Shown: positions 29,427 to 37,274 of the stretch, one piece after another
How the letters are laid out: every line of letters starts with the position of its first letter
How positions within the stretch are numbered: the first letter of the stretch is position 1
Assembly: GCA_032358165.1 (NCBI GenBank)
Contig: JAALGY010000052.1
Span: 558,001 to 622,000, forward strand
Reading direction: 5' to 3'
Length of the DNA: 64,000 bases
Source: Diplosphaera chodatii
Taxonomy: Eukaryota; Chlorophyta; Trebouxiophyceae; Prasiolales; Stichococcaceae
The notes under the pieces: model-generated
What the model was told of the DNA's origin: nothing
What the model saw: only the letters and a program-made list of their open reading frames with translations
Database searches by the model: none
Position numbers and translations under genes: made by a program

Positions 29427-29646
29427 CTTTGTTCAGCACCGCATCTCGCGAACACTGTAATTTTGTTGACTCAGAAATGGTCTTGGAGTCGTTGCCCTAT
29501 CTGTTGCAAGCGCAGATGCCCATCAGTTCTGGAACAGCACTTCGTGCAAATACCAAGTCAACTGTGCTGCTGTTGTATTCAACGTGAACGATCGTGCGTA
29601 GACAAGACCTAACAGCGATGCGTGAATGTTCAAAAGTGCAACCTGT

Positions 29647-29650
29647 AAAA
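29647..29650 (-). terminator. Pol III T-run terminator of the permuted tRNA
   Basis: On the minus strand a run of four T lies 5 nt after the end of the 5' half, where an RNA polymerase III transcript of the permuted gene would end. Only the run itself is seen; the role is inferred. Confidence 0.55.
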
Positions 29651-29655
29651 GGATT

Positions 29656-29740
29656 TGTGAGACACATGTGATAACCGACTACACCATCCAGACATTACCA
29701 ATGTTGTCTGAACCCAGGATCGAACTGGGGACCTTGTGTG
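29656..29740 (-). tRNA. Circularly permuted tRNA-Val(CAC) gene
   Basis: Read on the minus strand, the 3' half comes first (29740-29705), then an 11-nt linker (29704-29694), then the 5' half (29693-29656). Joined 5' to 3' they make a 74-nt tRNA. The acceptor GTCTGGA pairs with TTCAGAC over 7 bp (one G-U). The D arm GTGT-AGTCGGTTA-TCAC is of the standard valine type. The anticodon stem TGTGT/ACACA has 5 perfect pairs around the loop CTCACAC with anticodon CAC. The variable loop is AGGTC and the T arm CCCAG-TTCGATC-CTGGG has 5 perfect pairs. The discriminator is A. The break falls at 37/38. Flanks form a bulge-helix-bulge: CTCA (29661-29658) pairs with TGAG (29746-29743), with 3-nt bulges CAA and GTC whose standard cuts give exactly these ends. 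TTTT at 29650-29647 can stop Pol III. No ordinary colinear tRNA can be drawn here. Confidence 0.94.
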
Positions 29741-30193
29741 ACCTCAAGTTGGCGCGCTGGCGCAACCATGAGATGGCAGCTTGCTATTATTTACCATTCA
29801 TATACTACAAAACAAAAGTTTGTCGAGGCCATTCGAGGCGAAATCTGCCTTCTGTTCAGCGCGCTTTTTGCCTACCCGCCCGCAACGATGCGCGCACCGC
29901 CATATATTCCAGCGGCAGATGTGTCTTGCTCAGCCTTCACCTGACTAATCTGCAGCGTTCCTGGGTCCAGTTGCTTCTGCTATTGTGAACGTGATCATCA
30001 CTCGCGATCACGGGCCAGTTGCATTGGTAGTATGAAGTTTGGGCGCTAGGTACCCTGATGTGACGAGCTCTTCATGACAATATGTCAGCAACATCTGTTT
30101 GCGATCCACCGCCTGCCGCCTGCCAGATCGTTTGTCTTTATAGCTTGCACCTTGCAGTACTCAACCACGTGGCGAGCGTTTGCAGCGGGGATG

Positions 30194-35953
<5,760 letters not shown>

Positions 35954-36413: not shown

Positions 36414-37274
36414 ATGGCTCCAGTCATGGCAGCCCGTAGTCAGGTGTTGGCCCCGGGCCAGACGCGCTCGCAGCTCGCAGCCCGCTGCACGCTGCTGCAC
36501 CAGCGACGAGGGTCCCATGCGCTGGCTGCCTCGCTCTCAGCACCTCGCAGGGGCGTCGGCCTCCAGATCACAGCCCACGGCACCGGCGCAGCAACTGCGT
36601 CAGCACATAGCAAGAGGCCGAGGCCCGGGGAGAAGAAAGGCTTTGTTGAGGAGATGCGCATTGTGGCAATGAAGCTGCACACGAAGGACCAGGCTCCCAA
36701 GGAGGGCGAGCAGAAGGCAGCTGAGAAGCCGTTCCCGAAGTGGGAGCCGACGCGGGAGGGCTACCTGAAGTTCCTGGCGGAGTCCAAGGCGCTGTTCTCG
36801 ACGCTGGAGGACATCGTGGAGGCTGCCCCACACCCAGATTACAAGCGCTTCCAGAACACGGGCATCGAGCGCAGCGCTGCACTGGAGCAGGACATTCGGT
36901 GGTTCCAGGACACCTACAACCTGGAGGCTCCGGCCGTGACAGAGGATGGCCCTGGCGAGGAGTACTCCAGGCTAGTGCAGCGGCTGGCGCGGGAGGACCC
37001 ACAGGCGTTCCTGTGCCACTTTTACAACATCTACTTTGCGCACTCCGCCGGCGGCCGCATGATCGGCAAGAAGGTGTCGGAAATGTGCCTGGACGGCGCG
37101 CAGCTGCAGTTCTACCAGTACGACGGCGAGCTGAAGGAGCTTCTCGAGAAGGTGCGGGACAATCTGAACGAGGTGGCGGAGACGTGGACAGACGAGCAGA
37201 AGGAGCACTGCCTACAGGAGACGACAGAGTCGTTCAAGTACTCTGGCGCAATCCTGCGGTCCATTGCTCAATGA
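36414..37274 (+). CDS. HO1: Heme oxygenase, plastid (biliverdin-forming, HY1 type)
   Basis: It opens heme with ferredoxin as reductant to give biliverdin IX-alpha, iron and CO; biliverdin feeds bilin synthesis. The 286-residue frame is a single exon, unlike almost all neighbours. The first 70 residues are Ala/Arg/Gln/Ser-rich, a plastid transit peptide. The mature part begins GFVEEMRIVAMKLHTKDQAP, where the His near residue 89 is the expected proximal heme ligand. It continues with KWEPTREGYLKFL, the FLCHFYNIYFAHSAGGRMIG distal-helix block, FYQYDGELKELL and FKYSGAILRS, all diagnostic of plant and algal HO1. A TATA-like box sits 56 nt upstream and the gene is divergent from the DEAH helicase. 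Confidence 0.95.
   Translation: MAPVMAARSQVLAPGQTRSQLAARCTLLHQRRGSHALAASLSAPRRGVGLQITAHGTGAATASAHSKRPRPGEKKGFVEEMRIVAMKLHTKDQAPKEGEQKAAEKPFPKWEPTREGYLKFLAESKALFSTLEDIVEAAPHPDYKRFQNTGIERSAALEQDIRWFQDTYNLEAPAVTEDGPGEEYSRLVQRLAREDPQAFLCHFYNIYFAHSAGGRMIGKKVSEMCLDGAQLQFYQYDGELKELLEKVRDNLNEVAETWTDEQKEHCLQETTESFKYSGAILRSIAQ

Follow-up and report, generated by a model that had tools for sequence, protein, structure and literature searches.

A circularly permuted tRNA-Val(CAC) gene, very probably functional, in two homeologous copies in the green alga Diplosphaera chodatii

A tRNA gene whose second half is written before its first lies on the minus strand of a nuclear stretch of the green alga Diplosphaera chodatii (the window, by which I mean the whole 64 kb of DNA that was analysed), and this permuted layout is that of a tRNA-Val(CAC) gene. 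It is very probably a functional, circularly permuted nuclear gene of type II with its junction between positions 37 and 38, present once on each of two homeologous contigs; its activity is what I infer, and at the level of sequence the main evidence for function is conservation between these two copies. The features to which the argument refers are the following, in the order in which the minus strand is read:

29786 to 29792, minus strand: AAATAAT, TATA-like, a possible upstream Pol III promoter, kept in both homeologs
29741 to 29775, minus strand: upstream block of 35 nt holding the leader hairpin, identical in both homeologs (35/35)
29748 to 29766, minus strand: possible leader hairpin GTTGCGC-CAGC-GCG(C)CAAC, from the sequence and a ViennaRNA fold
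29743 to 29746, minus strand: TGAG, the leader-side strand of the hBH motif's central helix, conserved in the homeolog, with a predicted cut between 29741 and 29740
29705 to 29740, minus strand: 3' half of tRNA-Val(CAC), positions 38-73, 36 nt, without an encoded CCA, identical in the homeolog (L002)
29694 to 29704, minus strand: linker of 11 nt joining the acceptor-stem ends, 10 nt and altered in the homeolog
29656 to 29693, minus strand: 5' half of tRNA-Val(CAC), positions 1-37, 38 nt, carrying the anticodon CAC, identical in the homeolog (L002)
29658 to 29661, minus strand: CTCA (tRNA positions 32-35), opposite strand of the central helix by sequence, with a predicted cut between 29656 and 29655
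29647 to 29650, minus strand: TTTT, a putative minimal Pol III terminator, kept in both homeologs

Leader, 3' half, linker, 5' half and a trailer with TTTT therefore follow one another on one strand, the short linker standing between the acceptor ends, and the same order is found in the homeolog. The initial annotation had placed both halves and the 11-nt linker exactly to the base. When the halves are joined in the order 5' then 3' (74 nt), ARAGORN calls a tRNA-Val(cac) with the 7-bp acceptor (one G-T pair) and the 5-bp anticodon and T stems that had been described, and a D stem of three pairs and one T-T. In native order ARAGORN calls no tRNA anywhere in the window, and the Rfam search gives no match there at the gathering score and none up to E 1 within 29500-29900; box A and box B of the gene stand in reversed order.

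A permutation-aware search was run over the window, the homeolog and 48 other loci. Its covariance model was built by permuting in silico 12 colinear tRNAs that this genome also carries, with the tRNA-Val(CAC) locus left out of training. This out-of-sample model scored the locus at 66.2 bits (E 1.3e-19), the window having no other match up to E 10, and the homeolog at 65.3 bits, both well above the rest, of which the best reached 31.5 bits at a locus with two neighbouring tRNAs on the plastid contig; an earlier model trained with the permuted gene included had given 75.4 and 73.2 bits. Viral contigs and prokaryote species genomes had no match to a strict pattern describing this permuted tRNA-Val. 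The joined tRNA used as a DNA query matched only the two permuted loci in the genome, each as two halves in reversed order, and no joined, colinear copy was found by this search. With the independent model match, both halves perfectly conserved in a diverged homeolog and no joined copy found at the DNA level, the locus is best read, by a wide margin, as a circularly permuted tRNA-Val(CAC) gene.

The assembly comprises 85.6 Mb in 55 contigs, of which two (83.9 and 174.1 kb) hold dense tRNA sets and are probably the mitochondrion and the plastid. Since numerous tRNA loci have a partner locus on a second contig, two diverged chromosome sets are probably present, through hybrid origin or an old duplication. 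The partner of the window's gene lies on contig C17 at 259384-259467, minus strand, and the two regions align at 76% identity (1549/2045, BLASTN). Over this divergent background every one of the 74 tRNA columns is identical (36/36 in the 3' half, 38/38 in the 5' half), as are the 35 of the leader, while the linker keeps 8 of 11 aligned columns with a change in length, the trailer 8/10, the nearer flanks 17/40, 16/25 and 18/40, and the outer flanks 66, 70, 67 and 67 of 100. With both halves fully identical while flanks and linker drift, these alignments suggest that strong purifying selection acts on the permuted tRNA as a whole but not on its linker. A colinear tRNA-Gln(TTG) pair offers a contrast: its introns of 15 and 14 nt (ARAGORN) share little and its 5' exons are equal. 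In the homeologous locus a further call, Gly(gcc) with an intron of 50 nt, was taken as spurious and left out of the tRNA count; it sits in a flank aligned as protein-coding.

By translation, the permuted gene sits between two protein genes whose ends face it. The plus-strand gene ends near 29429, with an ORF further upstream that carries an HExxH stretch and reads by eye as an M48-type metallopeptidase; the minus-strand gene ends near 30200. Elsewhere in the window a single ORF (36414-37274) encodes heme oxygenase, and among the best 120 of 914 relatives the four best with an organism label are from Myrmecia bisecta (66%), Elliptochloris bilobata (59%), Coccomyxa viridis (63%) and Symbiochloris irregularis (55%), all four genera being trebouxiophytes; in the same 120, five further relatives (70-91%) score above these and land plants come later.

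At the junction, the 4-bp CTCA/TGAG helix and the cuts at 37 and 38 of the initial annotation are borne out by the sequence. The leader strand reads GTC in the bulge and then ACACA (39-43); with a cut after the second bulge base the 3' half would begin at C38. On the opposite strand CAA follows CTCA, and a cut after the second base of CAA would end the 5' half at A37. What cannot be kept is the description of a textbook bulge-helix-bulge, since the outer helix is missing on the trailer side: beyond that bulge I see by eye one possible pair here and two in the homeolog, and with a bulge that no helix closes the junction is the relaxed hBH motif. A 37/38 junction with a motif of the bulge-helix-bulge type is thus present as hBH, and the fold energies do not single it out. 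In ViennaRNA predictions the hBH helix has a probability of 0.51-0.71 at leader lengths of 10-14 or 26-30 nt, about 0.35 at 24 nt and at most 0.06 at 20-22 and 32-45 nt, the leader hairpin outcompeting it from 32 nt upwards and other folds at 20-22 nt. Where the helix does form, a slipped anticodon stem using the CACACA repeat is better by about 1.4-1.6 kcal/mol, and the proper anticodon stem has a probability of just 0.06-0.15. The predicted fold is compatible with hBH and is no proof of it.

A working tRNA probably requires that an RNA circle is formed and then reopened elsewhere. A single RNA polymerase III transcript would run from the leader through the 3' half, the linker and the 5' half to the trailer, and its halves would fold as a tRNA with the acceptor closed by the linker and the anticodon end open; a Sen-type endonuclease would cleave the hBH junction twice, once after T 29741 of the leader and once after A37, a ligase, probably RtcB, would join A37 to C38 into a circle, and RNase P and tRNase Z would excise the linker, with CCA added. 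The genome has matches to genes for both a splicing endonuclease and a ligase. The endonuclease domain PF01974 matches at four places, over the cut-off on C47 (30.6 bits) and C15 (29.3) and below it on C31 (22.6) and C9 (21.9), in exons that resemble Sen34 and Sen2 by motif. RtcB (PF01139) is matched by many exons on C30 and C29, with a second form on C36 and C8; the T4-type RNA ligase domain PF09511 is uninformative, since it had zero matches here and zero in the controls as well. Counting against the functional reading are the predicted folds, which do not clearly favour the hBH, and the A and B boxes, which stand in the wrong order for TFIIIC.

The leader is as conserved as the tRNA and therefore probably belongs to the system too, as a promoter or a processing element. 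Among 18 tRNA pairs, mostly homeologs, of which two are comparable over only 24 and 29 nt, its 35-nt identity is the longest perfect upstream run, the next-longest being 22 (initiator Met) and tRNA-Lys reaching 34/35. The hBH motif uses just a few of these 35 bases. The hairpin can be extended by a helix between ATCTCA (29774-29769) and TGAGGT (29746-29741), and in that extended form the hBH helix is excluded. One conjecture, on the doubtful side, is that in the nascent RNA the conserved hairpin stacks beside the junction or hides the TGAG strand, delaying cleavage until the whole tRNA is made; an alternative of equal standing is that the 35 nt may be a DNA promoter replacing the inverted A and B boxes, with AAATAAT as a TATA-like box. 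No such leader switch was met in the accessible parts of the literature on permuted tRNAs, and a search on leader hairpins found nothing.

That the leader hairpin might be unusually stable was considered and is unsupported (z -0.84 and -1.98 against shuffles). Across tRNA loci the mean fold z is -0.82 for 37 upstream stretches (p 0.003, homeologs not being independent), -0.16 for 37 downstream stretches (p 0.58) and -0.64 for 26 farther-upstream stretches (p 0.026); by these figures the upstream fold signal is weak. Hairpins of 6 bp also stand just upstream of four tRNA-Asp genes, with stems that differ in sequence and keep their pairing:

L048, 302-326, minus strand: CTCAGA/TCTGAG
L049, 175-205: CCCAGG/CCTGGG
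L050, 268-292, minus strand: CCCGGT/ACCGGG
L051, 204-228: CTTGGG/CCCAAG

In a fifth tRNA-Asp gene, an array copy (L110:217-241), no hairpin was seen within 25 nt. Colinear selenocysteine tRNA genes called by ARAGORN, one each on C19 and C25 (L082 and L085), carry an upstream hairpin AGCAGC/GCTGCT with equal stem and different loop.

Conservation of the upstream 35 nt, at a level matching the tRNA halves, would also be expected if the locus, through its boxes or the upstream block, were kept as a chromatin or transcription-factor site from which no tRNA is made, and other organisms do have TFIIIC sites at which no tRNA is transcribed, which counts for this reading. It is nevertheless very improbable, since conservation extends to all bases of the tRNA, those in the loops and the anticodon among them, and breaks in the linker, and since another good tRNA-Val(CAC) candidate was not found in an incomplete survey. 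The locus could instead be a dead relic, the leftover halves of tandem tRNA-Val genes with expression lost; tandem tRNA arrays (Asp, Gly, Trp) are present in this genome and it has been proposed that permuted genes can arise by tandem duplication (PMC3978253, in part), but a relic would hardly keep 74 of 74 tRNA bases between homeologs while flanks and linker drift, and the lost outer halves have left no trace within 300 nt on either side in both copies, where eight comparisons were no better than shuffles. I hold this, too, to be very unlikely.

The halves being separate in the DNA, they might also be expressed as two half transcripts joined in trans, as split tRNAs of archaea exist (PMC4033280, in part). 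Here both halves lie on the same strand, the 11-nt linker has no T run and the one TTTT comes after the second half, and the homeolog shares this arrangement, all of which makes a split tRNA extremely improbable. The preferred reading stays that of a functional, circularly permuted tRNA-Val(CAC) gene.

A colinear tRNA-Val(CAC) gene of other sequence, which the initial annotation had named as part of a case against the permuted one, was searched for. In the incomplete survey the one ARAGORN call of Val(cac), L058 on C13, has a T-T mismatch in the anticodon stem and, by eye, two of seven acceptor pairs mismatched, and in my judgement looks degenerate. This tRNA-like sequence (L058:39-112; C13:2976341-2976414) is flanked by short inverted repeats CTCCATTGACACT / AGTGTCAATGGAG and resembles a small mobile element. 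The colinear tRNA-Val genes that were seen have the anticodons TAC (L020, L021) and AAC (L096, L099). Of the 11 Val codons in the one ORF counted, a small sample, 8 are GTG. Wobble might in principle let tRNA-Val(TAC) decode GTG, so the need for the permuted gene is not proven.

The survey drew on several searches. From the Rfam tRNA search of the genome 63 of 1132 candidates were scored, so that a colinear Val(CAC) gene of very different sequence may still exist; a query of 19 tRNAs gave 8 candidates. The B-box pattern GGTTCGAATCC had 33 matches, of which the 18 outside the two organelle-like contigs were all read; GGTTCGATTCC had 101 (100 listed, tandem-array members mostly left out of reading), GGTTCGAACCC had 24 (12 palindromic ones left out) and GTTCGATCC had 550 (100 listed, left out of locus reading). 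In this incomplete survey the 43 other nuclear tRNA loci called by ARAGORN are all colinear, eight of them with introns, and besides the two permuted loci no further permuted tRNA was found; the count excludes L058, L062 (a tRNA-Tyr 3' half), L091 (by eye a Gln(CTG) with a long intron, on which ARAGORN makes no call) and the array copies in L110 and L111. One locus, L103, is Phe by its ARAGORN call, yet matches the Ser(TGA) gene L098. Nuclear genes for Ala, Asn, Cys, His, Ile, Leu, Phe, Pro and elongator Met were not seen in the same incomplete survey, and because colinear genes for them were not seen some of these isotypes may be permuted.

By the spacing of B-box or tRNA matches, tandem tRNA arrays were seen at four places:

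C17, 1179609-1184300: Asp, period of about 235 bp
C18, 889940-896663: Gly, period of about 130 bp
C1, 1790116-1791977: Trp, period of about 263 bp
C7, 846894-847524: Gly, period of 124 bp

At a tRNA-Tyr locus on C26 (L062, L073; C26:215303-216430) the 3' half is kept; a search of the upstream 1 kb for the 5' half, which C27 (L065) has intact, gave only an 8-nt match. Among the 100 of 550 matches listed, GTTCGATCC forms a single cluster of some 30-50 kb per contig on five contigs, perhaps centromeric repeats:

C1, 1170605-1222199
C7, 978529-1005168
C8, 565366-607892
C10, 360927-408859
C13, 1701310-1739792

Prasinophytes are a different class of green algae from that of this alga. Their type II genes (Ostreococcus, Micromonas; Maruyama et al., 2010) resemble the present one in being nuclear and green-algal, with a junction mostly at 37/38, an hBH motif and a short linker, but they carry Ser, Cys, Leu, iMet, Arg and Asn, and Val is not in the table in the accessible part of the 2014 review (PMC3978253). 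The same part of that review counts 34 permuted tRNA genes, spread over six algae and one archaeon and without a Val gene among them, reports circular intermediates and hBH 37/38 junctions for other algae, and names hBH as the junction form in green algae. It also describes Cyanidioschyzon merolae (Soma et al., 2007), where the 3' half likewise precedes the 5' half between an upstream TATA-like sequence and a downstream T stretch and where a circular intermediate was shown, but which is a red alga with several junction positions, some extra introns and no Val in the table. Two more permuted Ser genes are given for the Amorphochlora nucleomorph (PMC4494063, in part); the accessible part of PMC4033280 adds no permuted Val, and that of PMC13353863 merely cites the 2007 paper of Soma and colleagues.

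Permuted tRNAs are also reported for Auxenochlorella (PMC12636532; preprint PMC12633428; both in part). Strain UTEX 250-A (Plant Cell 2025) shares with the present case a trebouxiophyte nuclear genome with two divergent haplotypes and permuted tRNAs, and differs in being another organism, with 22 Mb haploid; in the accessible part the permuted tRNAs are referred to a supplementary figure, and Val may be among them (PMC12636532). The known range as the initial annotation gave it, the red alga C. merolae and prasinophytes, has now to be extended to Auxenochlorella, which it did not include (PMC12636532, in part). A permuted tRNA-Val was not found in the accessible parts of the literature searched, which does not prove its absence in print. 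The locus is a new case of a known and rare permuted gene layout, with a leader feature that is possibly new.

A trebouxiophyte case on two diverged chromosome sets amounts to a natural experiment, in which tRNA, junction and leader stay while the linker drifts, and it raises the question of how Pol III starts on a gene with reversed A and B boxes. Furthermore, because ARAGORN and the Rfam tRNA model both miss the permuted gene, the tRNA sets of green algae may be undercounted.
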